From Tubiluchus corallicola (taxonomy: Eukaryota > Priapulida > Priapulimorpha > Priapulimorphida > Tubiluchidae), in assembly GCA_030141605.1 (NCBI GenBank), contig JAQGDQ010000017.1, positions 376,001-440,000 on the forward strand: 64,000 nucleotides of DNA, read 5' to 3'. The notes beneath the pieces are model-generated. The model ran no database searches. It had not been told where the DNA came from and was given only the letters and a program-made list of their open reading frames with translations. Each line of letters starts with the position of its first letter. Position 1 is the first letter of the stretch. Shown here one piece after another: positions 1-61,354 of this stretch. Made by a program: the position numbers and the translations under genes.

Positions 1-899
1 GGTGTCATTGTAACAGATGGAGAACAAGTCCTAGATGGTGACAACATGCTATCTGAAGGACATGTCCCAAGTAAGCCTGTGCGGGTTACTTTATTAAAAT
101 CACTTACAGTTGAAGTCTCAGTTGATAACATTACGTTGTCCGATGGACATGTTCCGAGTAAACCTGTGCGCATTGGTTTATTACCGTCACTCATATTTGA
201 CAATAAAGGAGGCAAAATTTCTCTGTCCAGGTGACATATTTCTAAAAGCCTTGTACACATCCCTTTCTCACTGTCACTCACTGTGGACAGTAAGGGTGCT
301 GTCATTACCTTGTCTGATGGACATGTTCCAAGTAAGCCTGGTTTATTACTGTTACCCACAGTGGATGACAATGGTGGTGACCCTGTACTGTCCGATGGAC
401 ATGTTCCGAGTAATCCTGTACGTGTTGTTCTATTACTGTCACTTACAGTGGATGTTAAGGTTGATGGCATTAAACTGTCCGATGGACATGCTCCGAGGAG
501 GCCGGAACGTGCAGTTTTCATATCGTCACTCATTGTGGAAGTCAAAGATGACAACAACAAACTGTCTGTTGGACAAGTTCCGAGTATACCTGTTCGTGTC
601 ATAGTATTAGAGTTACTTAGAGGGGAAGTTATAGCTGATGACGACATAATTTTGCCTGTTGATGGGCATGTTCCAAGGAGGCCTGTGCGTGTTGTCTTGT
701 TATTGTTATTTATAGTTGAAGAACTTACAGGTGACGAGGTAATTTCGCCTGACGATGGACATGTTCCAAGAAGACCCGTGCGTGTTGTTTTACCACTGCC
801 AGCGACAAAGCCAGTTTGTGAATCTAGGTAATCACGAAGGTTCTGTAACCTTGTCACTATTGATGGATTTACGTTTAAACCCGATGTCCAGTCCATCAT
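1..899 (-). CDS. 29-residue tandem-repeat protein, N-terminal part (runs off left edge)
   Basis: Reading leftwards from the ATG at 899-897, the minus strand stays open for 299 codons to the window edge; the nearest upstream in-frame stop is at 951-953. About 50 non-repetitive residues (start MMDWTSGLNVNPS) are followed by nine units built on RTGLLGTCPSD plus a Ser/Thr/Asn-rich spacer such as STVSDSNKT. No signal peptide or membrane segment is evident. Between units the substitutions in the RTGLLGTCP codons are almost all synonymous in this frame (Leu as TTA, CTC, CTT; Gly as GGA, GGT, GGC, GGG; Arg as CGC, CGT, CGA). The two partly open plus-strand frames change residues, and one has a stop at 232-234. 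I therefore take the minus frame as coding. One unit near 232 has diverged strongly (Cys and Pro displaced) but remains open. The family and function are not recognised. Confidence 0.62.
   Translation of the reverse strand, partial: MMDWTSGLNVNPSIVTRLQNLRDYLDSQTGFVAGSGKTTRTGLLGTCPSSGEITSSPVSSSTINNNNKTTRTGLLGTCPSTGKIMSSSAITSPLSNSNTMTRTGILGTCPTDSLLLSSLTSTMSDDMKTARSGLLGACPSDSLMPSTLTSTVSDSNRTTRTGLLGTCPSDSTGSPPLSSTVGNSNKPGLLGTCPSDKVMTAPLLSTVSDSEKGMCTRLLEICHLDREILPPLLSNMSDGNKPMRTGLLGTCPSDNVMLSTETSTVSDFNKVTRTGLLGTCPSDSMLSPSRTCSPSVTMT
55..800 (-). repeat. 87-bp tandem repeat array (coding)
   Basis: The conserved GGACATGTTCC-like anchor starts at 58, 145, 232 (diverged), 319, 397, 484, 571, 664 and 757. 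Spacing is 87 bases, with exceptions of 78, 93 and 93, all multiples of three. Length changes in whole codons support a translated repeat. The array probably continues left of the window. Confidence 0.85.
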
Positions 900-961
900 G
901 CCAAATTTTTGCTGATTGATGTTACATTTTCCTCTGGTTATCACAATAGCTCACCACTCAA
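900..961 (-). other. Probable 5' leader exon part of the repeat-protein gene, with start-stop uORF
   Basis: On the minus strand a pyrimidine-rich tract ending TTTTTATAG (AG at 963-962) makes a good 3' splice site 62 bases before the ATG. The leader contains ATGTAA (927-922), an AUG directly followed by a stop, which can act as a minimal upstream ORF. The exon boundary is inferred from consensus only. Confidence 0.4.
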
Positions 962-1604
962 CTATAAAAACAGAAGACCTTACAATTAACTAGGCCTGAA
1001 TACTACAAGATTATTAACTTTGAATGGCATTTGATTTCATACATCCTGTGCAACTTTGTTATATCATATATTATAAGCACTCAAAGGCTATGAAATTTGT
1101 CGCCAATTCCTAACTCTACGATTAAAGGTACCCGTTTACTAACATTACTTATTTTACATTTTAATGTGAGTTGCAGCCTTCCTCACCCTTGTACGAAAGT
1201 CATAGAACAATACACTCTATGCTGCGTGCATAGTTGCATGAGGCTTAATAGAAATATGAGTACAGCCAATGTGACTCACTTTTACATAACGTTGCATAAG
1301 AAATTGACATTCTTCAAGCAAACACAATGCATAGCTTAACCAATTTTTATTTACTTATTCCAAACACAAATTTCTTCCTTTTTGTCTCAAATAAACACAG
1401 ATGTATGAAAAACAAGTGAATTGAACTGATTTCATCATCATCATCATCCAATGAATCACACGTCCAGTGACATGATTCTGCTCACCTCCCTATGCCAGAA
1501 CTCCCTGCTCGCCTCAATGCCCCAAGTACATTTATTTCTAAGGTCGAATGCTGAAGTGTTTAAATCTTTCTGTACAAAAACTAAATATGTTAACATTTGT
1601 TTTC
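962..1604. other. Non-coding stretch, nothing recognised
   Basis: AT-rich sequence with a short CAT triplet run near 1434-1448. Open frames here are short and lack protein-like composition. It would be intron or upstream flank of the minus-strand repeat gene. Confidence 0.5.
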
Positions 1605-1799
1605 CTACGGGTTTTTAGCTGGTTCTATGGCTTGTTGAAGAGCTATCTTCACTGGAATATTATCAGGTAGTCTAAACATATGGCCAATCCATCTTAAACA
1701 GCGTCTTTTTATTTTTCTTGTCCAAGGTTCTTCTTCTATTTTTTCATATAGATCTTTGTTTGAAATTTTCTTTGGCCATCTAATACCCAAAATGTTTCT
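1605..1799 (-). pseudogene. Non-LTR retrotransposon ORF2 C-terminal fragment
   Basis: The minus-strand frame reads RNILGIRWPKKISN then LRWIGHMFRLPDN. These are the typical post-reverse-transcriptase segments of LINE-type ORF2 proteins, whose usual forms are ILGIRWPDKISN and LRWLGHVLRM. Only about 65 residues survive. No RT core, endonuclease or tail is adjacent, so it is a dead fragment. Confidence 0.75.
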
Positions 1800-2077
1800 G
1801 TAATTTCACCTTTGAAACGCATCGATTTACTGATTTACACTGAACTGATTTACAAAATCCCCATCAAAGCCAATAAGGGAAACTTTCGTGCACACTAACA
1901 AAATCGTAAAACACGAGACGCGGCGAGAGTCTGCGAGAGAACTTAAAAGGCGTGACCATGGCGTGATGTTTGTCCGTCATCATTAATCCATTCATTCGCA
2001 GAATAAGGCCTACTCGCTTGTGAACAGGAAGCAGGACCGATTTGGTTACGGTGATATTACTTACATAGTTAATCGGC

Positions 2078-2113
2078 TATAAAATCTGCAACCGCATCTT
2101 CAGTTAGTCAAGT
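2078..2113 (+). promoter_or_regulatory. Candidate core promoter for NPC1
   Basis: TATAAAA at 2078-2084 is followed by initiator-like TCAGTT (2100-2105) and TCAAGT (2108-2113). The second puts the A of the start site 32 bases from the TATA box, the usual distance. A consensus splice donor follows at 2169. Assignment to NPC1 is an inference from order and orientation. Confidence 0.45.
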
Positions 2114-2168
2114 AGCTCTGGTGGCTGCTAAAAAGTGTTTATAATTGTAACCTAATTTCATGGTACAG
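2110..2168 (+). other. Candidate non-coding first exon of NPC1
   Basis: The exon ends TACAG before GTAAGT (donor at 2169), a perfect donor consensus. Joined to the acceptor at 6264 it forms a short upstream ORF across the junction: ATG at 2160, then GTA CAG / GTA CAT CAC TGA, six codons. This is consensus-based and lacks transcript evidence. Confidence 0.42.
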
Positions 2169-4624
2169 GTAAGTTTAATTCGACTGTATTCATATTGAAT
2201 TGAAAAAATTTTTCTCCATGGAATTACAAAATCTACTTCCAAACATTTGCATAAATATCAATTGTCAGGCGCCATATACTACTGCAGGGCGGTTTTATGT
2301 CGGCTTAATTTTGTCCTATAACGCTGTGTTTTTTAATTTTTAATATTTTAATCACAAAATCAGCTCCTAACATCTGTCTTTTTTAGGGCTTGGTTAGTTC
2401 TGACATTACTTCCTTCAATTTATCTGTATTGTCAACATACAAATCGTCAATCGTAACGTTACTTGCTGCCCATTCTTTCTTCCAGTTTTTCACTTGTTAT
2501 TAAATGTTCAGTAGTGTCTCTGTAGGGCGCAGAGTACGCCGCTAGCCAAAGTACACTTCCGCTAAAGCGCTATGGGCTAAATTTGCAGAAAAGCAGCGTC
2601 ATACATGGGCAGCCGAAGTAGAGCATTGGTGATTTCTGTCGAGATTCGATAATTATGACAGAATAAATTTGTTGTAGAAAGAAAGTAACTTTATGATAAC
2701 GATGGATAATCCTTGACAATTTACTAATGTATTTTTTACAATAATATCATCATTATTATTAGCTCCATTAATATCATCATAACATTAAACTAAGTGTCTA
2801 ATGCTTTAAAGAGAGAAACTGTGTAGTGCACATAGCTCACTAGCCCGTTTACTTAGTAGAAAACAATTATTTGTCGAAGAGGTAATGAAACTGACCACCT
2901 GTCTGTGAAGTGAGACAAAATAAAAAATGACATACTTCAAGAATATGTTGGAATCGCCTAGAAAGCGGGCTTCTTTCACTTCAAAAAGACTAATATCAAA
3001 GCCAAATTTAATATTTGGTCGTTCTACTAGCTGAGAATAAGATTCGTTCATTTTATCAGATATATAATAAACTATTCAAGGTGTATGGACGTTTTTAACT
3101 ATTATTATTAAATAAACAAGGACAACGGACGCTGCCAGTACGGTTAACGACTCAATTTGTGACCTGTCTTTAATGTCCTACTTGGACTAGCCCATGTACA
3201 GCAATTGTCCTACTTTGGCTAGTGTTCTACTTCGCTCCCAATAGTCTTGACTGTTTTCACGTAATGAGTAATTGACATCTTCTTTAAACATATTTTTATA
3301 ATTTGCTTTAACTGTGCGTAATTTTGTTAACTGTTTTTTCTATACATTGTACAACACATTTCATTGGTTTACCCTAGGTCGACAATAAAATATCTTCTGT
3401 TTCTATATCGCACACCTGGCCGATATCCCTAGGCCTATAGTTGGAATTTGACCCATGTCATTCCTTTGTTTTCTTATTAACATGCCTAATATCTCATACG
3501 TGCCATCTTGGCCGTTCCTGCCTTCCAGATCTTGCTCTATCATGTTCTCTGTGTGTATAGGGTGACATATATACCTTACCCTCTTATATTACATGTTTAT
3601 GGTAAAGTAGCAAACACACATTTAATTTATCCACATTTTGCTAACTTCGCTTTTTGATGGAATTTTTGCACAAATCAGAATTAATATCAAGGAAATTCAT
3701 CAGCAGCAGTGGCTTATCCAGGATTGCAAAATAGGGAGTTCCAAATCTGAACAGCCCCTGAAACCAACGCGTTTCCTGCATTTTAACTCTTTTTGAGGCC
3801 AATTTTGTCAACAAAAAATGAATTCTGCATGTCTAAATTTTTAAAATTTTGAATTTTCACATGGTCTTTATATTGCCTTTTAATATTTTGCCATAAACAA
3901 CTTTTGTGTTTTGACACCTTAGAGCTGCAGCTATATCAAAATCTCCTGGAGTATCTGTAGACTTACATAGGCCTACCATCAGAGCCAGTACACTAGGCCT
4001 TCTTAGTCATTTTCTACTAATAAGTAAATTATAAACTGCGAAAACATTAAACATGCTTAGTTTTCTATTTTTGCTATCTGAGACAAGTTAATTGTGACTG
4101 GTACATCGTATCATACAAGTAACAAGGTAGAGCCGAAAATAGCTGAACGTAATTTTTTTTAAAAACTAGTAGTGGGGTTGTCACATTTACTGCCCGTTTA
4201 AAGAGATCCTTTAGTTTAGTCATTCTAAACGGTTATCGATTTTTTTAAATGATATACAGTTCCCTTTAATTTGCTTCTGAAATGATGTAACTGTAATTAA
4301 TAAACTCACTAAGAGAATGTACAGTGATAAGCTTACTTTGCTCGTGAAAATATTTTTTTTAAAATATATTTTTATCTAATGCTTAGCAAACTGTAACTAA
4401 GGTGGGACTGAAGGATTAACTAGTAGGAAAATGATAAATAGTCTGTCATTAGAGGCTGTCACAGTGAAATTAATGACTACTGATTACCTTTCTAACCTTT
4501 TGGTTACCCGCATAAAGTTATGCATTTGGGAGCTTGAAGAGTACATTTTGAAACTGAGGGAAACGTTAGCATAAACGGTGTTGTGGAGATCGCTGGCATC
4601 AATTAGAATTGCGCAGAACATCGT

Positions 4625-4742
4625 AGAATGTTCCGTTGGAATGACCGCACTACCGTCTGGATTGTTCTCGAACATTTGTTCTGGAAGTTTCTACAGCGTG
4701 CTATATAAGGCGGAGCAGGCTACCGACACGGGATCGCACACA
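4625..4742 (+). promoter_or_regulatory. Heat-shock-element promoter with TATA box
   Basis: Inverted GAA/TTC pentamers occur at 4626-4633 (GAAtgTTC), 4665-4672 (TTCtcGAA) and 4679-4691 (TTCtgGAAgtTTC, a perfect three-unit element). TATATAAGG starts at 4703, twelve bases after the last element, with start-site room at about 4733-4740. The arrangement matches heat-shock gene promoters, but no heat-shock protein follows. It may instead be the U3/R part of a solo LTR, or an alternative inducible promoter for NPC1. Confidence 0.55.
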
Positions 4743-4866
4743 GATCAAACACGGACTTATACTTATGCATTTATTTGTATACTTACTTAAACGTTTTCCA
4801 GATTTTCACGTTTATTGTAATCATTTCGACATTCCTTCATACTCTTGTGTTATAGAATTCTCGCTA

Positions 4867-4872
4867 AATAAA
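4867..4872 (+). terminator. Poly(A) signal AATAAA
   Basis: AATAAA lies about 130 bases downstream of the expected start site of the heat-shock-type promoter. A TATA box and poly(A) signal this close together are typical of an LTR, but I could not find convincing LTR ends or a target duplication. Confidence 0.4.
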
Positions 4873-6069
4873 GTAGTAATATTTAACGGCATGTTTTCTG
4901 GTTTTCTCTACTAGCTTTACTAGAGAAACAAAACACAACAAACGGCTTTGAGTAATAGATGCGATATACACTGAGGTTGCATCACCCAGCATTTCATTAT
5001 GTATCTAACCTTCTTAATTTTATTGTGTGACAGGGAAATTCTACATTAAAATCTCCGTTCCACTGCCTGTCAGTGTAGCAAACATCTTGATGTTATAACA
5101 TACGTTTCGTAAGCAATGACTACATACAAGCGAATGCACTTCAATGCAGGGTACAATATTCTGTTTTTTAAACACTTAAAGCTATGCGTATATGTTGTCC
5201 TTACTGATTTATTCAACAGCTATTGGATGGCATATGCTGTTCTAAATAAACGAGTGCAGACTTGTGTCTAAAAGTGTAACAGCAAACACAGTGTAAACAG
5301 TCTTGTGTAACAGCAAACAAACCTAAATTTGGCAATTGCATGGACACATTCCTATGATTGCTACACGTTTGCTGCTTGTAACAAATTAATTGCTTTGACA
5401 GCTATGACTGCTAATTTTCAGTGTGCTGTTACTATCATCTGAAATGCTACAGTCTGCTGAAGGTGATTCATAGTTTAAAACTTTAACCATTCCTATGTGT
5501 AAATACTAATTTGCTTTATTTATACTATGACTTTACTCACGTACAAGTTGCTTGAAGTGCCTAGAACTTGGGATAAAATGAGGTCTTGTTGCCAAGTTCA
5601 TCAACACAAAGGCTGCATTAGCATGTATCATTCAAAAATTATCCACGCACATACAATGGACTCAAAATATAGTATTCATGTATTCAGTATGCAATTTAAT
5701 TAAGTATATTATAAGCTCAGCCTTGGCTGTTACTACCACAATTAAAAAAATAATCAAACTAAACCTACCAAACAAAGCTCATATTACTTACGTTTTTTCT
5801 TAGCAATATACACAATTAGTCATGTATATCATGTCGTTTACGCATTATAGCTGATGGTGTTATATTGTATCCATGTAACGCCAAGATTTTAGCATTAAAT
5901 GTTAAATTATTAACTGATTTTTACATTGTTGCAAAATACAAAGTAAGTTAATTTGGAATCATATAGGTCTAACACACTGTAGGGTGAACATTTTTATTTC
6001 ATGTACCTAAACAGCAACTCAGCTATTTAAAAGACAGGTCTGTTTTGGCAATTAAGCACCGCTATCAGG

Positions 6070-6125
6070 GATAGCTAGCGGAATTAGCATAGGTGTTTGG
6101 AAAGTAGGTCTTGAGTTCAAGTCAC
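6070..6125 (+). repeat. tRNA-derived SINE head
   Basis: A-box-like TAGCTAGCGGAATTAGCA is followed by B-box-like GAGTTCAAGTC at tRNA spacing. It lacks a full cloverleaf and is read as a SINE relic upstream of the NPC1 coding exon. Confidence 0.45.
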
Positions 6126-6318
6126 AGAGTAGGTGCAAAGTATTTCAAACTTTTTAGTTTAGTATTGCTTTCATGAATTTGCTATATGGTTAAGAATAAG
6201 AGTACTGGCTGTTAATTATAATAATATTTTTTTCAGTACTTATGTTATTTTCTTTTGTTTATAGGTACATCACTGAAGCCCTTCTGCACAGGAAACAACA
6301 GAAAACCACACAGACACG

Positions 6319-9300
6319 ATGATTACAATCAGTACAATTGTTGTGCCATTCGTGGTGTTTCTAGCTCTCCATGCTGGAATAACAGTTGTCTCGCAAGATG
6401 ATCCTGGTCACTGTGTGTGGTACGGTCAGTGCGGTCACGCTGCATCTAACAATTTGTCATTGAACTGTTTATACAATGGAACTGCAAAACCACTGACTGA
6501 CAAAAAAGCTATTGATTTGCTAGAAAAGTTATGCCCGCAGTATGCCAGTGATGATGTTCCTCGCACTTGTTGTGATTACAATCAGTTACAGACTCTCGAT
6601 GCTAACATGGCGTTACCGCGCCAGTTTTTCTTGAGGTGTCCGTCTTGTTTTGAAAACTTTTTGCATCTGTATTGTGCGCTGACATGTAACCCAGAGCACA
6701 GTCTCTATCTACATGTGAATAATAGTGAACAGTTAGCAAATTCTACGAAAAGAGCTATTACCGCTCTAGATTTTGCAGTATCAATTGACTTTTCACATGG
6801 ATTGTTTAACTCTTGCAAAGACGTTCAGTATCCAGGCAACAATCAAAAAGCAATTACATTGTTCTGTGGAAAGGCGGCCGATCAGTGTACACCACAAGAT
6901 TGGCTAAACTATATGGGTGACATAAATAATCAAAAAACGCCTTTTCAAATTAATTTTAATTTGACCGATTCGCCAGTGTTTTTTAATGATTCTTCTGAGC
7001 CGCTATACCCAATGAATGACAGCATCACACCTTGTAGTATGAGCAGCAGTAACGACACTCAGCCCTGCAGTTGTTTAGATTGTGAGTCGGCCTGTGCGCC
7101 TATGCCGCCGCCTATCCCTCCCCCACAGCCATGGACTATTTTCAACATTGACGGCGTCTCCTTCATAATGGCATGTTGCTTTGTTGTATTTCTCATTTTG
7201 TTTTTACCATATTCTATCTTTTTGCTAATAAAGAATGGCCGACACTCTTCTGGGTTAATTACGGAAAACGAGCTGAGCTGCTGCTCGAGTATAAATTCAA
7301 CTGCTGTCGTGGAAGAGAAGCCTAGCTGCTCTGAGAAATTGACAGCAGCGTTTGAGAAAGTACTCCGGAATGTGTTCGTCCGATGCGGTATATTTTGTGC
7401 TCGACATCCAGTAACGGTTATTCTTGCCGGTTGCATAGTTGCCGCTGCGCTTTCCTGTGGGATTATTATGATGCAGGTTACAACGGATCCTGTTGAACTT
7501 TGGGCTCAGAAGGAAAGTACAGCTCGGAAACAGAAGGACTACTATGATACCCATTTCATGCCCTTCTTCCGCACAGAGCAAATGATAATAACCGTTAATA
7601 ATGCGACTCCTGTTCAACACGATTATTACCCAATGGGTTCACAACAGTTTGGACCAGTATTCCATAAGGATATCTTACATCAGGTATTATCACTACAGCT
7701 TTATCTAGAACAAATGCCTGTGTATGTTGACAGTTTGAAACGTAACATCACACTGCACGACATCTGCTTTGCACCATTGCGGCCAGATAATACTAACTGT
7801 ACGATACAAAGTGTTTTGCAGTACTATCAGAATGATCACGACACGTTGGACAAGAAGGCTACGGATCCCGAAATGCATGTCTTTGTTGTAGCTGATTACA
7901 TTGACCACTTCATGTCCTGTGCAAGCGATCCTGCTGCCATCGCTGATATGACGGCTCTACATACTCCTTGTTTGGGAACATTTGGTGGTCCAGTTTCTCC
8001 TTGGGTGGTGCTCGGTGGATACCCTGATTTTGAGTATGGCAATGCCACTGCTTTGGTTATATCCTTCATCGTTGAAAACCGCCATAATGACAATGAGTTT
8101 CTTGAGAAGGCACTGGCTTGGGAGAAAGCATATATTTCTTACTTGAAATCTTATAGAAATGAAAACATTACCATTGCTTATTCTTCAGAGCGCTCAATTG
8201 AGGATGAGATAGAGAGGGAGAGCAATTCCGATGTTATCACTATACTTGTCAGCTACCTGATTATGTTTACCTATGTTTCTATAGCCCTAGGTCAAGTGGA
8301 CAACTGCTACAGGTTGCTGCTTGATATAAAAATTTCTCTTGGTCTCGGTGGTGTGCTGATCGTGCTCGTCTCTGTAACAGCTTCTGTAGGAACATACAGT
8401 TATGCGGGTATACCTGTTACTCTCATTATCATCGAGGTTGTCCCTTTTCTTGTATTGGCTGTTGGCGTTGACAATATCTTCATTCTTGTTCAGGCCTATC
8501 AGCGAAGTACAAGACGGAAAGGCGAACAACTTCCTGAGCATATTGGTAGAATAGTTGGTGAGGTGGGTCCCAGTATGTTGCTGTCTAGTCTGTCGGAGTG
8601 CACTGCATTTTTCATTGGTGCGATGTCTACTATGCCAGCTGTGAGAGCATTTTCACTTTATGCAGCGCTAGCTGTGTTATTCGATTTCTTACTACAAATA
8701 ACTTGCTTTGTAGGACTGTTAACATTAGATTCGAAGAGACACGAGAAGAATCGATTCGACGTGTGCTGTTGCATCGGCATCCGCGAGAAAGATAAAGAAC
8801 TAAAATCAATATCTGAATCTGAGCAGCAGAGCTGCCTCTACAAGTTTGTGAAACATTGTTATGCACCTGCCTTGCTTTGTAATTACCTTAGGCCTGTAGT
8901 GGTTACTGTTTTTGTGGGTTGGATCTTAGCATGTGGCGCACTGGTAAACAAGATTGAGATCGGGTTAGATCAGAAATTATCCATGCCAGAAGATTCGTTT
9001 GTGCTGACGTATTTTACTGCTATGGAAAAGTATCTGTCAGTCGGACCACCTGTTTATTTTGTCGTGTCCGATGGACTGGATTACACCACTCGACAGGGGC
9101 AAGACAAAATCTGTGGAGGAAATGGCTGTCCGGAAGATTCACTTTTAGGTCAGGTGTACGCCGCGCAGAGACAGCCAAATTCTACACACATTGCGCATCC
9201 AGCATCATCATGGCTGGATGATTACTTTGACTGGTCTGCAACCTCACCATGTTGCCAAGTTTATAACGGAACAGACAAATTCTGCAGTGCCGCAGTCGCT

Positions 9301-10227
9301 AATGACACCTGCATACCGTGCGACATACACGAAGTTAAGGGTCGACCCGCACAAGAGGATTTTGTTCATTATCTGCGGTTTTTCCTGCAAGACAATCCTA
9401 ACATGGCGTGTGCAAAAGGAGGTCACGCTGCCTATGGAACCGCGGTAGAGTTACTAAGCAACAACACCGAGATAGGGGCCACTTACTTCATGACTTATCA
9501 CACTGTTTTGAAAACATCTGCTGATTATATAAGCGCATTGAAAAGTGCGCGAGATATCTGTGAAAACATTACGAAAACTGTAAATGTCTCTGGCGTAGAG
9601 GTTTTCCCTTACAGTGTATTTTACGTATTTTATGAACAGTACCTCAACATTATACCAGTTATGATTCAAAGTTTAGGTTTATGTCTAGCAGCCATATTTC
9701 TAGTGACGACAGTTCTGCTTGGTTTTGACGTGCACTCGGCCATCATGATTATTATAACTATATTCATGATCTTGATGAGCATGCTTGGCATGATGTGCTT
9801 GTGGGATATTCCACTTAATGCTGTCTCGCTGGTTAATCTAGTGATGACCGTCGGCATTGCGGTAGAGTTCTGCTCCCACATAGCTCGAGCATTTGCAACA
9901 AGCACTATGCCCACCAGAGTCGAGCGATCACAAGACGCCCTCACAAAAATGGGCAGTTCTGTCCTCAGCGGAATAACGTTGACCAAGTTTGGTGGTATTG
10001 TGGTGTTGGCATTTTCGAAATCGCAAATATTCCAAGTATTTTACTTTAGAATGTATGTTGGAATTGTATTGTTTGGTGCAGTGCACGGTCTGATTTTCCT
10101 GCCAGTATTCTTGAGTTACTTGGGTCCGTCTGTAAATAAGCAAAAATTACTTGACGAGGAAGAATCACCGGAACAGAAACCTCTTCTGCAATCAAATAGT
10201 CATTCAAATCTCTCTTACTCATCTTAA
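6319..10227 (+). CDS. NPC1: NPC intracellular cholesterol transporter 1 (NPC1), single coding exon
   Basis: NPC1 takes cholesterol delivered by NPC2 in the late endosome/lysosome and moves it into or across the limiting membrane. The 1302 codons match the family from end to end (human form 1278). Signal peptide is about residues 1-25. The Cys-rich sterol-binding N-terminal domain opens with CVWYGQCG, and a proline-rich linker ends near 270. The first membrane helix follows, then the middle lumenal domain (FFRTEQ, CLGTFGGP) and the sterol-sensing domain at about 636-800 with AVGVDNIFILVQAYQ. The Cys-rich third lumenal domain and the final helix bundle (GITLTKFGGIVVLAF) complete the protein. 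The tail carries EQKPLL (1285-1290), a D/ExxxLL lysosomal sorting signal. There is no intron in the coding part. A splice acceptor at 6264 indicates a 5'UTR intron. Confidence 0.96.
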   Translation: MITISTIVVPFVVFLALHAGITVVSQDDPGHCVWYGQCGHAASNNLSLNCLYNGTAKPLTDKKAIDLLEKLCPQYASDDVPRTCCDYNQLQTLDANMALPRQFFLRCPSCFENFLHLYCALTCNPEHSLYLHVNNSEQLANSTKRAITALDFAVSIDFSHGLFNSCKDVQYPGNNQKAITLFCGKAADQCTPQDWLNYMGDINNQKTPFQINFNLTDSPVFFNDSSEPLYPMNDSITPCSMSSSNDTQPCSCLDCESACAPMPPPIPPPQPWTIFNIDGVSFIMACCFVVFLILFLPYSIFLLIKNGRHSSGLITENELSCCSSINSTAVVEEKPSCSEKLTAAFEKVLRNVFVRCGIFCARHPVTVILAGCIVAAALSCGIIMMQVTTDPVELWAQKESTARKQKDYYDTHFMPFFRTEQMIITVNNATPVQHDYYPMGSQQFGPVFHKDILHQVLSLQLYLEQMPVYVDSLKRNITLHDICFAPLRPDNTNCTIQSVLQYYQNDHDTLDKKATDPEMHVFVVADYIDHFMSCASDPAAIADMTALHTPCLGTFGGPVSPWVVLGGYPDFEYGNATALVISFIVENRHNDNEFLEKALAWEKAYISYLKSYRNENITIAYSSERSIEDEIERESNSDVITILVSYLIMFTYVSIALGQVDNCYRLLLDIKISLGLGGVLIVLVSVTASVGTYSYAGIPVTLIIIEVVPFLVLAVGVDNIFILVQAYQRSTRRKGEQLPEHIGRIVGEVGPSMLLSSLSECTAFFIGAMSTMPAVRAFSLYAALAVLFDFLLQITCFVGLLTLDSKRHEKNRFDVCCCIGIREKDKELKSISESEQQSCLYKFVKHCYAPALLCNYLRPVVVTVFVGWILACGALVNKIEIGLDQKLSMPEDSFVLTYFTAMEKYLSVGPPVYFVVSDGLDYTTRQGQDKICGGNGCPEDSLLGQVYAAQRQPNSTHIAHPASSWLDDYFDWSATSPCCQVYNGTDKFCSAAVANDTCIPCDIHEVKGRPAQEDFVHYLRFFLQDNPNMACAKGGHAAYGTAVELLSNNTEIGATYFMTYHTVLKTSADYISALKSARDICENITKTVNVSGVEVFPYSVFYVFYEQYLNIIPVMIQSLGLCLAAIFLVTTVLLGFDVHSAIMIIITIFMILMSMLGMMCLWDIPLNAVSLVNLVMTVGIAVEFCSHIARAFATSTMPTRVERSQDALTKMGSSVLSGITLTKFGGIVVLAFSKSQIFQVFYFRMYVGIVLFGAVHGLIFLPVFLSYLGPSVNKQKLLDEEESPEQKPLLQSNSHSNLSYSS

Positions 10228-11724: not shown

Positions 11725-11997
11725 GTTAAAGTTTAATGATGTTAAATTTAATCTTCTTTAATTTCAATTTAATAATTGCTCTTAAGTTAAAATAACAACG
11801 TTATATGTTCACTAATATTTTGCAAACTTTACATGCCATTGTAACTGTTAGAGAAAACAATGCATTCTTAAAATAAACAATGTTTCTTGAGAGAAACCAA
11901 TTCATTAATACAGTGTTAATGCATCACTTAAAAAACTAATTAGTGATTCACTGTTCATTGGGAAGTGGGAACCGATTTATTCTTTTCTGCCGACATT

Positions 11998-13011
11998 ATG
12001 GTTTATCAAAGAATTTCGTTTGAGGATAAACAGCGCATTTTTCAAAGTTATGAAAGAGGTGATGATTACTTACATCTTGCACGGCAACTTGGTATAAAAA
12101 AATCAACTGCGTGGGCTATTATTAAGAGAGCACTGGAGGGTGGAATTGTCAAACCACGTGGCGGCTTCAGAAGAAAGCTCGTCGATGAAGAAATGGGAGA
12201 CTATGCTGTTAGTCTTATAGAATCTGAGACTCATCCAGAATTTACGCTAGAGCAAATCATTGCGTCTATGCGCCGAGACATGCCTGAAAAACAACGCATG
12301 TCCAGTTCAACGTTAGCCAATGTTTTAAAAGGTCGCCTGATTGTAATGAAAAAGTTAGAAGACGCTGTAGCGGATAGAAATAGTGAAAGAGTGAAGCACG
12401 AACGCTTTCTATATGCACACTGGTTGATGGAGAGAGGTTTGCAATGAGAAATTACATTCATTGACGAGGCGGGTATAAACGGATGAAGAGGACGAGGGTC
12501 AAAGAGCCGTGCGCGTTGTTGCTGGTCGTCGCGGAGGCAATCTTACAATGACTTTTGCAGTTAGCAATACAAACGGCCTGATATATCATTCCTTAACAGA
12601 AGGTGGAATGAACAGAGAACGTTTTAATGCATTTCTTCAAGATGCAACAGATAACCTGCATGACGATGGTCGGGAAAATTTTTCGTTTTTGACAATGCAC
12701 CTGCTCACAGGGGAGCAGCCTTGCCGCCAGATTTGTGAACACCAATTCAAATTAAGAGGCTTCCTCCTTATTCTCCCTTTTTAAATATTGTCGAGAACGT
12801 ATTCAGTCAGTGGAAGGCTGAAATGAAGCGTCTTCTTGCAGATATTAGGGAAAATCTTCTAGTGCAAAATCACGGTCAGAGAATGGCAATATTAGCTCAG
12901 TTAGCAGAACAGTCTGTGAATATCATAACGCCCGCAGATGCAGCCAATTATTTTCGGCATATGCAGCAGTTTGTACCACGCTGCTTAACTTACGATGATA
13001 TTCTGATGTAA
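11998..13011 (+). pseudogene. DDE transposase relic (Tc1/IS630 type)
   Basis: From ATG at 11998 an N-terminal helix-turn-helix region is open (start MVYQRISFEDKQRIF; LARQLGIKKSTAWAIIKRA). A stop at 12445-12447 interrupts it just before the first catalytic block FIDEAGIN (Asp codon 12473). The frame then shifts to RRGGNLTMTFAVSNTNGLIY, and shifts back at the second block FDNAPAH (Asp codon 12691). A further TGA precedes LPPYSPFLNIVENVF (Glu codon 12793), and the frame ends at 13011. With at least two stops and two frameshifts it cannot make a full transposase, but all three catalytic residues are still legible. Confidence 0.8.
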
Positions 13012-14578: not shown

Positions 14579-17500
14579 TCAAAGGAGTTTCGAACGAGTA
14601 GGACTCGTCTGACGAGCCTTAAGTGGTGTACTAGTAATTACAGGGTCTTGAAAGACACTGGCATAAGAAGATCTCAAAAAATTTATGTAATTGTTCATTC
14701 CCTTGCTATTGCAGTCGAGCATGTCGTATTTCTCCTGCAGTTCTGAAAGTCGTTCTACCAATTTTCTCTCGATCTCATCTTTTGCAGATTTCAAAGTTAG
14801 GCACTCCGCTTTACTGCGACTGACCTCCGTCTCCAAGTCGACGATGCGCTTCTGAAGAATCCTCTCTTTTCCAGACGACTTCTCCTGTGCTCGCTCATTA
14901 GCCTTGCGTGCTTCGGCTAGAGCCAACTCCAGCTGCTGGGCCATCGAGGTATTGTCATTTGACTTCGTATCTACAGTCACCTGTAGCTCGCGTGCCGTGC
15001 GCTGCCACTGACCAAGTTCGTTCCTTACATCCTTGTTCTCAGAACCAACCTCCGCCAATTTTGCCTGCAATGTCTCCAGCTGGGCCCGAGAAGACTGATA
15101 CATGTCTTCAGCCAGCTTCTGTTTCTCTAGAGTAAATTGTAGTTGCTGCGTCAGCTTTTCGACATTTATCTGCAACTTTGTCAGTTCTTTTGCCTGATCT
15201 TGATATTGTTGATTAAGGGTCTCAAATCGTGCCTGAGATGCGTGCAACTTGTCCTGCGCCACCTGTAGCAAGTCCGTCAAAGGTTCCGATTCATCAATTT
15301 TTGAGCGAGATTTTGAGCGAGTCTTTTCCAGTTCAACTTCTTCAACTGCAAGCTGCTTTAATCTGATTCGTTCTTTTTCTAGATGTGCTAGCTCAATATC
15401 CTTCTCTTCTATTTCGTTCAGAGAAGCGTTCACAAGGTCTTTCTGCGACTGCAGTTCTGTCTCTAATTGGCGCACTGATGATCGCAGTGTCAGCAAGTCA
15501 TTTTCTGCATTAGTCCGCTGTTGCTCTGATGTCTGAAGACTGCATTTTAGACGTTCATTCTCTAGTTGAAGACTAGCAACGTCACTTGTGGTTACGTGCA
15601 TGTCAGTTGTCAGTGACTCCACTTCAAGTTTCATTTTTGATTCTTCAGTACTTTTTTCTTGCTCCAATCGAATCACTTTTTCTTTAATTATAGCCAACTC
15701 ATTCTCTAAACTTCGCTTATCTAAAGCAAGTTTATCACACATTGACTTTAAGTCTTCCAGTTGGTCACCTACTTCACTTAGCTTTTTATCTTTTTCAGCT
15801 ACCATCTCATTCAATTTGCTCTTTTCTGCTTCAATTTGGGCGACTCGACTTTTCTCTGATTTGGACATTTTCTTCATGAAGTGACGCTTATCGTCTTCAA
15901 GTTTCTGCTCGAAGGTTTCAACCAGCTGTCGTAATCGGGAGCATTCCTTCTTTTCCTCAAAAAAGTTTTTCTCCAGATCCTTGTAATGCACCATGAAACG
16001 ATGCATCTCTGCTTCCTTGTTACGGAGCTGGTTCTGCAAGTGCGCCTTCATGGATTCTAAATCGCCCTTGCGAGCTTGCAGACGGCAGTGTTCCGCTTGC
16101 AACAAGTCATAGTCATCTCTTGTAGTACTGGCACTTTTTTCTCGCTCAGTCATCTGCTGCAGCAGCTTCTGTTTCTCTTCTTCTACACTCTCAACACGCT
16201 TGCTGAGATAGTCTCTTTGCTCCTGCAGACGTTCATTTGTAGTAACACGATCGTGATAATCAATGAGAAGACGGCGCAAGATGCAATTTGCCTTGTCGAA
16301 ACTCACTAACTTTTCTAACATGGCATCTCGGAGGCCGGCAAAAAGAGTCGCATCATCAGGTGAAAGTTTTTTCTCATCTTTCACGGAATTCAGTAACTCT
16401 CGAATGCGTGCGGTTTCCTTGGCCAGACTCTCGCCAACATTCTCCATTTCTAGAAGCCGGTTCAACAACGTGTCTTTATATTTCCCGGGGTCCGTTTCAC
16501 ACTTTATCAAATCCTTCTCTTCCCTAATTTGACCCAAACTTTTTCGCAATTGTGCATTTTCTGCTTCTGTCAAGGTCAACTGATGTTGTAGCTCTTCTAA
16601 CGTTTTTTCTGAATAAGTTCCAGAAGAATCATGGCGTGCCACCATGTCTCCACTGGAATCATCCCGTGAAGTGCTTTCATCATTCACAAAACTGACACTT
16701 AGACGTTGCTTCGAAGCAGTGCTATCGTTTTTGTTTGCTACCCGAGAATATGACAAATCTGGACATCCTAAGCACAATTCGTGGGTGTCACTTTTCCAAC
16801 TTATCTTGGCTAAACCACCCCTAGATGTTTTGCCAGGTGGCGGTATCCATGGACTCTCTTTGGGCGGTGAGCCGCCACATGCCTCCTTGCTACCAGATGA
16901 GCTAACCATAGAATGTTTGCTGTGTTCGCTACTTGACAAGTGAACAACACGTGATAAACTTTCACTTGAGTACTTTACAGTGGGAGGGCTGAAATGCTTG
17001 CTCAATGAATCACCAGCTTTACCTCTGGATGCAAAACCACGCTGTTTAGCACGAGTAACACGTTTATTACGTACGAGATTATCAGCAGATTGTGTGTCAC
17101 GTAGGGAACTCCCACTCACTTGTTTAACATGTTGAGGGATATGTTTAGGTTGTGAACGAGTGGCAATAGGCTGTTTAACACGAGTGTCTTGTGATAGTTT
17201 GTCTTGCAATGAGCTATGATGTTCTGGATTGGAATACACAGTTCGGGGTGGACTAACACCTGCCCGCTTGGGAACAAAATGTTTAGACTGCCTAGCAGGT
17301 GTGCATTTTGTTCTCAAAGGACTCCCACAAGGTGTACTTGTCTCGAAACCTTGTCTGCCTAACGATATCACAGTAGCTGTACTTCCTCTAGCAGGTCTGA
17401 TGCGTTCAGAACTGCCACTTGAGCTTACAACTCCCGATTGGCTTGGCTTAATACTGGAAATGTTTGACAAAGAATACTTAGCACCAACCTCTGTCGTTCT

Positions 17501-17713
17501 TGTGTTCTTCATGCTAACACACTGACAATTGGAGTAGTCTCCCTTCCCACAACTTATACAGGTACATGCAGACTTTGCTGATTTCTCTGTAACACCTGAT
17601 GTTGCAGATGCAGACGGTGCAATGTCACTAGTTGCTCTAACATGATTGGGCTTTTCCTCTTCTATATGAACATGCACTGGTGCAAGTATTTTCTTCGTTT
17701 TTCTAGTAGGCAT
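14579..17713 (-). CDS. ODF2: Outer dense fiber protein 2 / cenexin-like coiled-coil protein, single coding exon
   Basis: ODF2/cenexin is a scaffold of the mother-centriole subdistal and distal appendages, needed for ciliogenesis, and of sperm-tail outer dense fibres in vertebrates. The 1044-codon frame has a basic, Ser-rich disordered N-terminal third. Conserved PWIPPPGKTS at 288-297 matches the PWMPPGKSS block of vertebrate ODF2 and is followed by a Trp-containing stretch. Coiled coil runs from about residue 369 to 1010; segments such as LVSFDKANCILRRLL and LENERLKCSLQ align with vertebrate ODF2 blocks of the same order. The protein is longer than vertebrate ODF2 (about 830) because of its N-terminal part, which holds a Cys cluster at 50-65 (CxC-x2-C-x7-CxC). 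The coding region has no intron, unlike the usual multi-exon ODF2 gene. Without a search, other centrosomal coiled-coil proteins remain possible, but the PPGK block favours ODF2. Confidence 0.82.
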   Translation of the reverse strand: MPTRKTKKILAPVHVHIEEEKPNHVRATSDIAPSASATSGVTEKSAKSACTCISCGKGDYSNCQCVSMKNTRTTEVGAKYSLSNISSIKPSQSGVVSSSGSSERIRPARGSTATVISLGRQGFETSTPCGSPLRTKCTPARQSKHFVPKRAGVSPPRTVYSNPEHHSSLQDKLSQDTRVKQPIATRSQPKHIPQHVKQVSGSSLRDTQSADNLVRNKRVTRAKQRGFASRGKAGDSLSKHFSPPTVKYSSESLSRVVHLSSSEHSKHSMVSSSGSKEACGGSPPKESPWIPPPGKTSRGGLAKISWKSDTHELCLGCPDLSYSRVANKNDSTASKQRLSVSFVNDESTSRDDSSGDMVARHDSSGTYSEKTLEELQHQLTLTEAENAQLRKSLGQIREEKDLIKCETDPGKYKDTLLNRLLEMENVGESLAKETARIRELLNSVKDEKKLSPDDATLFAGLRDAMLEKLVSFDKANCILRRLLIDYHDRVTTNERLQEQRDYLSKRVESVEEEKQKLLQQMTEREKSASTTRDDYDLLQAEHCRLQARKGDLESMKAHLQNQLRNKEAEMHRFMVHYKDLEKNFFEEKKECSRLRQLVETFEQKLEDDKRHFMKKMSKSEKSRVAQIEAEKSKLNEMVAEKDKKLSEVGDQLEDLKSMCDKLALDKRSLENELAIIKEKVIRLEQEKSTEESKMKLEVESLTTDMHVTTSDVASLQLENERLKCSLQTSEQQRTNAENDLLTLRSSVRQLETELQSQKDLVNASLNEIEEKDIELAHLEKERIRLKQLAVEEVELEKTRSKSRSKIDESEPLTDLLQVAQDKLHASQARFETLNQQYQDQAKELTKLQINVEKLTQQLQFTLEKQKLAEDMYQSSRAQLETLQAKLAEVGSENKDVRNELGQWQRTARELQVTVDTKSNDNTSMAQQLELALAEARKANERAQEKSSGKERILQKRIVDLETEVSRSKAECLTLKSAKDEIERKLVERLSELQEKYDMLDCNSKGMNNYINFLRSSYASVFQDPVITSTPLKARQTSPTRSKLL

Positions 17714-17805
17714 TTTTTCTTAATGACTTTCAATGTTCTTGAATGAAACAGTCCAACACCGCCCCTCCTGATGAGGATGACAGGCAAACATCAGGTTCAG
17801 CAGCT
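17714..17805 (-). other. ODF2 5' leader behind a splice acceptor
   Basis: On the minus strand TTTTACTCTCTTCTAG ends at 17806, a good 3' splice site. The 92 bases to the ATG contain CTGATGTTTGCCTG, an out-of-frame upstream ATG. An upstream non-coding exon is expected to the right, but I could not locate it. Confidence 0.4.
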
Positions 17806-23980: not shown

Positions 23981-51134
<27,154 letters not shown>

Positions 51135-51601: not shown

Positions 51602-52064
51602 GTACCGTATTTATTCGAGCATAACGCACAAAGTTTTTTACCTAAGTTTGGGTGCGCGTTATAAACGAGGGCTGGGGTGACACGCTTAGATGTATCAATA
51701 TATTATTTGTGCAATCACTCATTAGTCAAAGATATCACTGACCACAATCGCAAAACAACTGGGACACTGATGATAAATTGACTCAAAAAGAATGGTAACA
51801 ACTCTTTGGCGTATCTGATGATGAATCGCACTTTGAAGGATTTTAAATAAATATTGTAAATTTTATTTCGGTATTGTGTTCATTGTTTACTTTACGTTGT
51901 CAATAAATGATTTTTATCATGGCCGCACGTGTTCAACAACGTTTGTCACTTACAATGCTTGGTCTGAGCCGAGAAAAAGTGAAACAAAATTTTATACCGA
52001 TTTTTAATCGAAGATAGGGGTGTGCGTTATACACGTGTGCGCGTTATACTCGAATATAGATACC
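51602..52064 (+). mobile_element. pogo-like short element
   Basis: Left end GTACCGTATTTATTCGAGCA and right end, reverse complemented, GTATCTATATTCGAGTATAA, both followed by ACGC(GC)AC motifs. The frame FGVSDDESHFEGF ends near 51846 and may be the C-terminal tail of a lost transposase. Confidence 0.6.
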
Positions 52065-53552
52065 CTCAGCAAATTTACTAACTTCTAACTTGTAAAAGGT
52101 TGCTCTCTGTATATGACTTTTCTAGTCACACCATTGTGAGTGTTATATTGTAGTCTACATTGTGTAAGTAATTGACCACATTGCACATGTTTTCCAATAA
52201 GCCAAAGCAGTGTTATATTACAAAAACAACAATCTGGTAACAAGAACTAAATTAAGAGAATGTGTTGTGAAATTTAAGCTAGAGAATTATGTCATATTAT
52301 GCTGTGATTTTTCGAAAACTAACGTCATCATCATAAATCGCAAGATGTGTACTGTGAGTGAGACGATGTTTATTATAGTGACATGTTTACATCCATCATA
52401 CATTACATGTGCAATCATTTTCACTCTTTATGCACGACAAAAATTTAGACATAAAGCCGACCATTTAGACTTACAAGTCACTGCCTACTGGCACGAAAAG
52501 ATTTTTTTAATGTGTATACGTGGCAAAATTCATATGGATCATATTACTTTACAATTCTAGAAATGATTGTACAAACTGTCTCTCGTTGTTTATAGAGTTC
52601 TTTTTGCCACTTTGTTTAAGAATTTTGCATAAAGCGAGCAAAGCTTCTAGTTAAAACATCAGTATTCACAATAAAATGAAATTTTATTTAATATTTCAAC
52701 ATTTTTTAAATAAATCACTTCTTTGTGTATGATAAAATGTGCAATCAAGTAGGAGATGTATCTCGTTTTGTATTTTGCCTAAATTGCACATTTTGCACAT
52801 TCGTTCCTGCAAAGAAAGTCCATGGAATCGAGTCTCAATTTTTTAAGGCAGAATACGACGTCTAAACCGAGATAAAAGTGATCTTTTACTAATTGCGGAC
52901 TAATTACTAATTATTCACGAACATAATTCGTAATGCAGTGCAACATTTGCAATACTTGTATACACAGATAGATGTAGTGCAATTTTTATACACACATAGC
53001 TGTACTAACATTTTTATAAGACACAAAACAGCATTTAATAGCATGCAGTAATTGTAAACTCAAACAAAATCCATATATGTGAGCATGACAATATTTAGCA
53101 CTTGACATCCTGAATGAGTTCAGATCCATATCCATGTGCATGACATTATGTATATCACTTGACTATGTCTGGCCAGTGCAGTTTAAACCTATGTAACTTG
53201 CCGATATGCAGAACGCTTATGGCTAATTGTGATGCTCCTACATGATTGAACAATTTGCGCTAATTATCACATTTTGGTTCCTTTCTCGGGGCATTAAACT
53301 ATCCCAGCTCTTTTAATTTACCGCGATCTGAGCTTCTACCTTATACGTCTGTCCTGCAAGTTTCATGATTGTACAAGTTATAGTTCTCAAATTATTCAAT
53401 GTTATGAGTTTGATGCCAAAGACTGGATGTTTAGAAAAACAACAGAAAAATCAGCATATGGTTTTTTTAGATCTGCAATGCCTGTTGATAAAAGTAATAT
53501 TTAAAAATTTCCAATGGTCTTACCATTGTAAACTTATTCCTTTTTGTTGATT
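52065..53552. other. GPCR-A 3' flank
   Basis: Non-coding. A plus-strand frame (52345-52560) is preserved in both duplicates (58986-59201) with one residue change, but this is expected from the recent duplication and is not evidence of a gene. Minus-strand AATAAA at about 52683 is a possible distal poly(A) site for the receptor. Confidence 0.4.
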
Positions 53553-54551
53553 TTACTTTGGGTTGCTTTCTCGACTTGTTGCCATTACAGCAACGCTGAC
53601 ACGAAAGTCACGTTTACAGCAGAACAGACCTTTTATTTTGCTCTTAAGCAGCGGTATTCTAATCATGAAAATTAACGGATTAAATAGTGAATTGCTGGAA
53701 ATACTTATCACCATTATTGGTACTACGTAGAATTTCTTCATTTTGTCGTAAAACTTTGGTGCTAAATTAAGTAATGAACCATAGACAATTTGTGGCAGCC
53801 AGAGTACCACAAATGTTCCAACTATAAGGGCTGTTGTCTGCAGCGCCCTCCCATTGGAACCCATGAAAGTGCTTGTCTGCATCTTAGCTTTAATTTCATT
53901 ATTTAGCTGCACGGCTCTATATATTCTAATATACAGTCCGATTGATATGCAAACTGCTGTGAAGCTCATTGCAGTTCCCAAGGCTCCATTGCTGTCATCG
54001 TACGGCCCTACAAGGCACAAGTATTCATCGTTGTTCCCTATGACATGATTGATGTTCCAGGAAGTTAAAACTGGTAGAATGGCATAGGCTAGATTAAGCA
54101 GAATAATGGCAATCCCAGCGAGTATTACATGCTTTGTTTTAAGTCCCACTGAGTGAGGATAAATGATTTTAAAGTACCTGTCTATAGACATAAGCAACAT
54201 TGAAAGGGCTGACCCCATTAGCCCGAATGACATGAACACGGCGCTGCTCCAACACCAGGCTCCGGTTGGTGGGAAAATGTCATGATTTGGATCAATTCCG
54301 ACGACAAAAAACTTCAGAATGCAGTGTACTCCAACGCAGAAATCAAAGAACGATATCAAGGTTACAATTGACAAAGATGGCCCCACTTTCTTCATTGTTG
54401 TTATGGTTACAATGACGATGCTATTGCTGCTTATTATCAAACATCCCAGGAGCAAACAAACTGAATAAAATACAGTTAAGTATGATCGAATGTGTGGATT
54501 ATGATAGGCTAATCTCTCGATACGATCTCTGCTTTCGTTTCCACTTTGCAT
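53553..54551 (-). CDS. Class A (rhodopsin-like) GPCR, copy A
   Basis: A 332-codon receptor starting MQSGNESRDRIERLAY. The frame is open 54 codons further up to 54713, but a TATA-like CCATAAAAAAC lies within that extension and the nearer Met gives a normal short glycosylatable N-terminus (NES). Seven hydrophobic segments are visible: TM1 with SSNSIVIV, TM2 with SFFDFCVG, TM3 starting at AWCWSSAVF and ending IDRYFKIIYP (DRY motif), TM6 with LWLPQ, and TM7 with NPLIF in place of NPxxY. The TM3 Cys and the Cys in DEYLCLVG can form the usual disulphide. The C-terminal tail has a CC palmitoylation candidate. No ligand class can be assigned; the DRY and TM7 regions distantly recall adenosine-type receptors. 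Confidence 0.85.
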   Translation of the reverse strand: MQSGNESRDRIERLAYHNPHIRSYLTVFYSVCLLLGCLIISSNSIVIVTITTMKKVGPSLSIVTLISFFDFCVGVHCILKFFVVGIDPNHDIFPPTGAWCWSSAVFMSFGLMGSALSMLLMSIDRYFKIIYPHSVGLKTKHVILAGIAIILLNLAYAILPVLTSWNINHVIGNNDEYLCLVGPYDDSNGALGTAMSFTAVCISIGLYIRIYRAVQLNNEIKAKMQTSTFMGSNGRALQTTALIVGTFVVLWLPQIVYGSLLNLAPKFYDKMKKFYVVPIMVISISSNSLFNPLIFMIRIPLLKSKIKGLFCCKRDFRVSVAVMATSRESNPK

Positions 54552-54713
54552 TTTTTCACTTTTATTCGATTTGATTCTGATGATAGTACACAATGTGCAG
54601 TGAAATGCCGTGTTTTTTATGGTGTTTGTTGCTCTTATTCTTTTATTACGTCCAAAAATGAGTATCAACGATGTATGACTCCAATTTCTCTGCAAGAGTT
54701 CCGTAAATAGCAC

Positions 54714-55839
54714 AAGACTGTGAAGCTATTCTTTCACACTTGTTTCATTTCCTAGTACGGCGAAAGACGCATCCACTCAGCAACTTCAGTGGCATTAATG
54801 AACAGCGCTTGTTAAAGTTGGGTTTGTGGAAAACCATTTGTCATCTCTGTGTCCCACTGGGTACTTAGACTTTAAAGTGCAGCACTGAACATTTTTCTGA
54901 GTCATTTCTTAGAATAACTTAAAATCCATAATTCTTACTCAAGTAAACATATTGTCCTTAAGCAGCTTTCTTCAGATTCTGAAAATAAGCTTATTTATGC
55001 TGGCTTTACATTTGTTTATAGTGTTTCATAACAAGATCGACAATGTTGCGTACGTTGGGAAGGACTTTTATTCCACTCTTCTGCAACTGCTCATTTTAAA
55101 CTTTATTAAGAGCTTTGGTCTTGTGTTGTAACAAGAAAGTTGCATTATGTCCTTTTGTCTAGGTTACTTTTGTTTTTGACAGCGACACTGCAGTTACATT
55201 TTAAGATCTTGTTAAACGTTAAACCAAATTAATGTGTAAATTGCAAACTAAAATTACTTTGGAGCCGCAGCATCTTTGTAGGCATCACAGTAAACAAAAG
55301 TGTTGCCCACAGAAACGGAAACTTTGTTCCATACCTTGGTGATGTTTGATGATCCAATCAAGTAAAAACTTTGTAGTATGATTAGCTAGGATGTCTTTGG
55401 TTCAAAATAAAGAATTTGTAGCAAATGGTTAATTAGCTAATTAATTAGAGTAAAATTAAGTCACATTGATAAATGTTAAAAGTAATATAGTTTAAACGAA
55501 AGATCATGAAGCGCAGACGGATATAGCACTAAAAATTATGACAAAGCTTCATTCATTTAGTGACTTCAACCATTTGAAGTGCATTCTAATCCGAATTTAG
55601 TCTTGCAAACATTGACAAAACTTGGGTATTTAGATTTATTAAATATTTATTTTAATACAGCAACATTTGACAGAATCAAGCCAATGTGGATGACTGAATG
55701 ATCTTTTTTTCTGTGTTTGTGGTAACCATAGAAAAGCTGGTGAATGTTCATTAGGATCTTGACCCCACAGTTATTGGATCGGAATTGCTGGAACTTGTCT
55801 TTGTGTTTGGTGGGTCTGTTTTCACTACGGTTTGCAAAA
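54714..55839. other. Spacer between GPCR A and pseudogene B
   Basis: The first ~180 bases match the upstream flanks of the other copies. From about 54870 it again resembles the sequences at 57430 and 61720. Non-coding. Confidence 0.5.
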
Positions 55840-56903
55840 TTATGTGTGGAATCGCGATTCTGAGTGTTGCAGCTCATCCGTGGTGCCTTCCATCCCGCTG
55901 CTTGGCATATTTTCTCGATTGGATACTGTTACGGCAGGGCTGACTTGAAAGCGAGATTTACAGCAGAACAGATCTTCTATTTTGCTCTTAAGCAGCGGTA
56001 TTCTTATCATGCAAATTAACGGATTGAATAATGAATTACTGGACATGATGATCATCATTATTGGTAATACGTAAAATGTCTTGATTTTATTGTAAGACTT
56101 TGGCAGAACACTGAGTACTGCGATGTAGCCTATTTGTGGCAACCAAAGAGCCACAAATGTTCCTATGTTCGTACTATAAGGACTGTTGTCTGTAGCGCCC
56201 TCCTGTTGGAACCCATGGAACTACTTGCCTTCATCTTAGCTTTAATTTCATTGTTTAGCTGCACGGCTCTATATATTCTAACATGCAGTCCAATTGATGT
56301 GAAAACTGTTGTGAAGCTCATTGCAGTTCCCAAGGCTCCATTGCTGTCATCGTACGGCCCTACAAGGCACAAGTATTCATCGTTGTTCCCTATGACATGA
56401 TTGATGTTCCAGGAAGTTAAAACTGGTAGAATGGCATAGGTTAGATTAAGCAGAATAATGGCAATCCCAGCGAGTATTACATGCTTTGTTTTAAGTCCCA
56501 CTGAGTGAGGATAAATGATTTTAAAGTACCTGTCTATAGACAGAAGCATCATTGAAAGGGCTGACCCCATTAGCCCGAATGACATGAACACGGCACTGCT
56601 CCAACACCAGGCTCCGGTTGGTGGGAAAATGTCATGATTTGGATCAATTCCGACGACAAAAAACTTGAGAATGCAGTGTACTCCAACGCAGAAATCAAAG
56701 AACGATATCAAGGTTACAGTTGACAAATATGGCCCCACTTTCTTCATTGTTGTTATGGTTACAATGACGATGCTATTGCTGCTTATTATCAAACATCCCA
56801 GGAGTAAATAAACTGAATAAAATACAGTTAAGTATGATCTAATATGTGGATTATGATAGGCTAATCACTCGATACGATCTCTGCTTTCGTTTCCACTTTG
56901 CAT
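55840..56903 (-). pseudogene. Class A GPCR pseudogene, copy B
   Basis: Same receptor as copies A and C, from MQSGNESRDRIE (ATG at 56903-56901). Codon 13 is TGA where A and C have AGA. Near 56160, in TM6, eight extra bases (a GAACATAG-type duplication) shift the frame. Both TM1-TM5 and TM6-TM7 remain recognisable. The C-terminus differs from A and C, extending through NRENMPSSGMEG to a stop at 55840. Confidence 0.88.
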
Positions 56904-61192: not shown

Positions 61193-61354
61193 TTTTTCAC
61201 TTTTATTCGATTTGATTCTGATGATAGTACACAATGTGCAGTGAAATGCCGTGTTTTTTATGGTGTTTGTTGCTCTTATTCTTTTATTACGTCCAAAAAT
61301 GAGTATCAACGATGTATGACTCCAATTTCTCTGCAAGAGTTCCGTAAATAGCAC

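Follow-up and report, generated by a model that had tools for sequence, protein, structure and literature searches.

A tandem-repeat array at the edge of the window most likely encodes a minus-strand protein with a conserved short core

The tandem-repeat array at the left edge of the window (the whole stretch of 64,000 nucleotides that was analysed) most likely encodes a protein on the minus strand, and we hold it very probable that a minus-strand coding exon lies at 3-899 (Table 1). Our data support the view that the amino-acid sequence of this frame is under purifying selection, most of all across a core of 12 residues, while the spacers drift yet stay in frame and Ser/Thr-rich. All the conservation seen is conservation within one array. 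Purifying selection on a minus-frame protein had been proposed in a preliminary description of this DNA, and it is supported here by pN/pS counts, codon likelihood and a two-frame simulation. The complete statement, that 3-899 is the 5' coding exon of a gene not yet recognised, in an animal-like nuclear genome, and that its product would be a multivalent linear-motif protein, has in our judgement roughly even chances.

Table 1. Coordinates of the repeat array, the putative gene start and the other features of the window.
Feature	Position	Strand	Remarks
Coding exon	3..899	-	ATG 899, second in-frame ATG at 896; 299 codons, runs past left window edge
Repeat unit 1	54..140	-	core ...KVTRTGLLGTCPS
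Repeat unit 2	141..227	-	core ...KPMRTGLLGTCPS
Repeat unit 3	228..314	-	core degenerate (CTRLLEICHL); plus-frame stop sits here
Repeat unit 4	315..392	-	78 nt, three codons shorter; KPGLLGTCPS
Repeat unit 5	393..479	-	
Repeat unit 6	480..566	-	RSGLLGACPS
Repeat unit 7	567..659	-	93 nt; RTGILGTCPT
Repeat unit 8	660..752	-	93 nt
Repeat unit 9	753..830	-	first in protein; spacer side scarcely repeat-like
Unique N-terminus	831..899	-	without hydrophobic stretch of signal-peptide kind (crude hydropathy)
Splice-acceptor-like site	962..983	-	pyrimidine-rich tract followed by TATAG; 62 nt upstream of ATG 899
Fragment upstream of repeat gene	1605-1790	-	~700 nt upstream
NPC1 cholesterol-transporter ORF, complete	6277-10227	+	ATG 6319; coding sequence without intron
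ORF with weak transposase-type helix-turn-helix matches (Pfam)	11947-12447	+	
Coiled-coil-like ORF, uninterrupted	14579-17719	-	1046 codons; no Pfam match
Dispersed repeat family	23387-50454	both orientations	75-91% alike; pieces near 23.4, 26.2, 33.7, 44.3, 47.7, 50.0 kb
Tandem duplication	39815-40064		period 124 nt, 99% matching
Tandem duplication	45900-46107		period 102 nt, 94% matching
Duplication	51659-54858 and 58299-61499		98.4% identical; each copy with 390-codon receptor ORF (stop to stop)
Third receptor copy	55840-56864	-	92-93% identical; divided between two overlapping ORFs in different frames

As had been described, the minus frame is open for 299 codons, from the ATG at 899 to base 3. 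Counted from the first ATG, GTG or TTG (here a GTG) the ORF covers 3..944, and its stop-to-stop extent is 3..950, giving 316 codons without a stop or frameshift and with the left edge open. The array does consist of nine units, but their lengths are 26, 29, 30 or 31 residues rather than a uniform 29, and the unit at 228-314 is degenerate. The description of spacing changes as whole codons was accurate for all eight distances between unit starts (87, 87, 87, 78, 87, 87, 93 and 93 nt). The unit register was chosen by us and derived from repeat families, and unit 9 was delimited arbitrarily. The protein consensus reads LTSTVSDSNKxTRTGLLGTCPSD, with RTGLLGTCPSD as core consensus, and one Leu and the Cys are identical in all nine units. 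Gapless copies share 61-76% identity with the repeat-family references; TRF at its default score did not report the array. A core DNA pattern (up to 3 mismatches) matched 8 times inside 1-830 and 3 times elsewhere in the window (3 mismatches each). These are 11 matches in all, whereas 2.0 would be expected in shuffled sequence, and not one of 100 shuffles reached 11. No further copy of the array was found in the window.

For the analysis of selection, unit 3 was excluded from the 8-unit sets, and units 3 and 9 were excluded from the spacer sets (7 units). In units 4, 7 and 8 the gaps were set between codons by hand; for units 7 and 8 MAFFT chose slightly different positions, and these two units were each shortened by two codons before counting. 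By counting over 8 units, whole-unit pN/pS was 0.60 in the minus frame, 0.69 in the antisense plus frame and 0.81-1.26 in the four remaining ones; the corresponding core values were 0.27, 0.34 and 1.01-4.05. With unit 3 included, the ratios were 0.63 (minus) and 0.73 (plus). All simulations used a star tree, with 400 neutral runs or 200 runs per hypothesis at hand-chosen selection strengths. Neutral simulation gave a whole-unit minus ratio of 0.80 ± 0.09, and 0.75% of the 400 runs were as low as observed, while the plus value was equalled or undercut in 23% of runs. For the core, neutral pN/pS was 0.89 ± 0.17 versus 0.27 observed.

Codon likelihood models were run with equal codon frequencies, and the ω = 1 model kept the kappa of the free model, which makes the 2ΔlnL values slightly generous. 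Over 8 units, the minus frame had an ω of 0.45 for the whole unit (2ΔlnL 14.0) and 0.12 for the core (2ΔlnL 28.3), values that are not near 1; including unit 3 left the whole-unit ω at 0.45 (2ΔlnL 15.3), and taking codon frequencies from the tiny alignments gave a core ω of 0.117. Besides the antisense plus frame, which is considered below, the four remaining frames had whole-unit ω values of 0.89-2.4. Those of frame minus 1 (2.1-2.4; 2ΔlnL 7.8-9.2) and frame plus 2 (1.8-2.0; 2ΔlnL 5.3-8.3) exceed 1, as is expected if the silent sites of these frames are the replacement sites of the true frame. The spacers had an ω of 0.63 (7 units), which is not different from 1 (2ΔlnL 1.7). Constraint therefore sits in the short motif and the spacers are relaxed, a comparison (core 0.12, spacer 0.63) that is drawn from separate models.

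The differences from the consensus were in line with this only in part of what had been claimed for them, namely that they fall at synonymous sites in the minus frame and in no other. Synonymous changes are indeed enriched (56 of 151 differences, with 30% expected), but they are a minority, and the ratio of the antisense plus frame is lowered as well. The synonymous excess was confined to the core (24 of 38, p 0.0004; spacer 32 of 113, p 0.34). Differences that are silent in the minus frame only numbered 15 of 151 (5.4% expected, p 0.017), and those silent in the plus frame only 13 of 151 (8% expected, p 0.43).

The third codon positions of the minus frame and of the antisense plus frame fall on the same bases, and a low ratio in one frame therefore casts a shadow on the other. 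We consider it very unlikely that the plus strand codes for its GHVPSKPVR repeat, with the minus frame as the shadow. The plus frame had been set aside earlier for changing residues and containing a stop; its one stop in 1-830 does sit in unit 3 and speaks against coding, but the frame also shows a reduced ratio, weaker than that of the minus frame, with an ω of 0.66 for the whole unit (2ΔlnL 3.7; 0.69 and 2ΔlnL 3.5 with unit 3 included) and 0.22 for the core (2ΔlnL 13.3). When constraint was simulated on the minus frame, the core ratios were 0.24 (minus) and 0.31 (plus), close to the observed 0.27 and 0.34, and the whole-unit ratios were 0.52 and 0.54, compared with 0.60 and 0.69 observed; the plus value of 0.69 lies above the simulated 0.54 ± 0.07, which is a misfit of the simulation. 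A gap between frames at least as large as observed occurred in 6% (unit) and 47.5% (core) of 200 runs under minus constraint, and in 0 of 200 (unit) and 2.5% (core) under plus constraint. The between-frame gap therefore disfavours the plus frame, and the simulation shows its lowered ratio to be mostly a shadow of the minus frame. Since 12% of the runs with minus constraint left the plus frame stop-free across eight units, its openness is unremarkable as well. That the array is a non-coding minisatellite with a frame open by chance would suit a tandem array within repeat-rich DNA, and the frame gap alone is compatible with neutrality: without constraint but with the minus frame kept stop-free, it was reached in 10% (unit) and 21.5% (core) of the simulations. 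The mean ratios in these runs were 0.84-0.89, far above the observed core, and the level of the ratios therefore speaks against neutrality, as do the neutral runs and the core likelihood (2ΔlnL 28) given above; we regard this explanation as extremely unlikely. A codon-usage score, for which three neighbouring ORFs served as the training set, gives no preference to minus (0.04-0.05) and if anything leans to plus (0.11). The best frames of intergenic samples had a mean of -0.07 and a highest value of 0.07, so that minus falls inside that range and plus above every sample; the training ORFs themselves ranged from -0.04 to 0.19 and the receptor ORF scored -0.04, which makes this a weak measure.

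Upstream of the ORF, the acceptor-like sequence TTCTGTTTTTAT followed by AG ranked in the top 0.8% of the AGs of the window by a home-made score, and 9.2% of 3000 random 150-nt stretches contained an equally good one. Acceptor-like sites were also present 54 nt before the ATG of NPC1 (2.5% of random stretches as good) and 92 nt before the first ATG of the coiled-coil ORF (1.7%), and the two intact receptor copies, which are near-identical duplicates, had no comparable site (48%). An acceptor, a short leader and an uninterrupted coding exon were thus found at 3 of the 5 starts examined, a common layout that fits a 5'-UTR intron or trans-splicing. From the sequence we infer that the site before the repeat gene is the 3' end of a 5'-UTR intron, or a trans-splice site. 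Between this site and the ORF there is an in-frame stop (951-953), so the coding sequence should begin within this exon, at either 899 or 896.

Ser and Thr make up 33% of the 299 residues of the predicted protein, its charge is nearly neutral (22 basic and 21 acidic residues), and only four residues are Phe, Trp or Tyr. By the charge-hydropathy rule (0.478, boundary 0.414) it is not classed as disordered. Run on the single sequence, AlphaFold2 gave every one of the nine cores a strand, with a mean pLDDT of 44, a pTM of 0.36 and not one of the 299 residues reaching 70, and this model is too low in confidence to decide between disorder and a stacked-strand fold. A folded protein, in which each unit would contribute one core strand and the units would stack as a beta-solenoid or similar with Leu and Cys inside, is in our opinion unlikely, although the invariance of these two residues, the modelled strands and a hydropathy that is not clearly disordered all point towards it. 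Set against this are the low model confidence, the variation in unit length (26-31 residues), the barely constrained spacers, and the warning in PMC11795689 that AlphaFold2 yields unrealistic beta-solenoids for repeat sequences.

The array could also encode a secreted precursor that is cut after [KR]xxR to release TGLLGTCPSD... peptides with one Cys each. Six such sites occur, each ahead of a core and in 6 of the 9 units, compared with 0.85 expected in the shuffled protein (the copies are not independent), and in this placement the protein is like multi-copy convertase-cut peptide precursors. It is unlike them in that a crude hydropathy test showed no signal peptide (the best 15-residue window of the whole protein reached 1.11, near residue 105) and in that dibasic sites number 0. 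Moreover, the [KR]xxR site is absent from units 3, 4 and 7, and an upstream signal exon joined at acceptor 963 could not be read through, because the inferred exon contains the stop at 951-953. All this makes a precursor rather improbable. When 900-6270 was scanned crudely for signal-peptide exons, two overlapping weak matches came up on the minus strand and none on the plus strand. We judge it distinctly improbable that the array is a formerly constrained and now decaying gene copy, or a piece of a mobile element, as the degenerate unit 3 and the nearby fragment at 1605-1790, which we take to resemble a retroelement reverse-transcriptase tail, might suggest. The 316 codons without a stop or frameshift argue against decay or a mobile origin, as do the absence of Pfam transposon domains from the ORF and of another array copy from the window.

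A chain of docking motifs would be expected to look like this, with 12 residues under strong and the linkers under weak constraint. In a sticker-and-linker scaffold of this kind, each RTGLLGTCPSD core would be a single site for docking or self-association, carried on a flexible tether, and a chain of about nine or more cores would collect or cross-link copies of one partner. We put forward only tentatively, as a possibility that we ourselves doubt, that RTGLLGTCPSD is an undescribed linear docking motif, present in at least about nine copies on a fast-evolving, lineage-restricted animal scaffold protein. GLFG nucleoporins carry a short G-hydrophobic-hydrophobic-G motif between Ser/Thr/Asn-rich spacers, and the repeat protein resembles them in this; it differs in the charged residues of its units and in the conserved RTGLLGTCPS context, and the complete lack of FG dipeptides in 299 residues rules against a GLFG nucleoporin. 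The nearest working analogy may be PYCO1, a tandem-repeat linker carrying sticker motifs that binds its partner many times, according to PMC10288592. Linkers of the EPYC1/PYCO1 type have a short motif repeated along a tandem-repeat chain, like the repeat protein; they are algal pyrenoid proteins with a different motif and partner, and we claim no kinship.

Searches with the translated repeat revealed no relative. In Pfam, nothing exceeded the gathering score for the whole ORF, the best hit being DUF3915 (E 5e-6; 26.8 bits with a cut-off of 26.9), for which no single stretch passes alone, and none of the nine single units matched. The PDB gave nothing credible, either by sequence (best E 0.33) or by unit profile (best E 0.4). 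No credible relative was found in NCBIfam or among viral contigs, prokaryote genome contigs, plasmids and phages, and this absence says little on novelty, as the collections searched besides Pfam and the PDB are prokaryotic or viral. Literature searches with the repeat motif strings returned no match. If the core is an undescribed docking motif, its partner would offer a new example of multivalent assembly. Apart from its coding strand and its motif, this is probably one more unassigned gene, perhaps lineage-specific. Genes of this kind are easily overlooked, having no known domain, being cut by the end of a contig or window and having a deceptive antisense frame. Here, with no homologue at hand, selection tests within the array indicate the coding strand and single out a 12-residue motif.

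The window has a GC content of 36% and reads as animal-type nuclear DNA because of its NPC1, rhodopsin-type receptor, coiled-coil-like and transposase-type ORFs, its microsatellites and its dispersed repeats. Rfam and tRNA scans gave no match. A PDB sequence search with the receptor ORF (limit 1e-10) and the coiled-coil ORF (limit 1e-5) gave none either; the N-terminus of the coiled-coil ORF presumably resembles outer dense fibre protein 2. The NPC1 ORF matches NCBIfam TIGR00917 at 1453 bits (cut-off 1016.5). NPC1 is intron-rich in most animals, so the intronless gene may be a retrocopy or may reflect a lineage poor in introns; no literature match was found for an intronless or retrogene NPC1. 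The rhodopsin-type receptor was identified as a PF00001 match, with Pfam run on the 60194-61366 copy only, and the third receptor copy is apparently broken.
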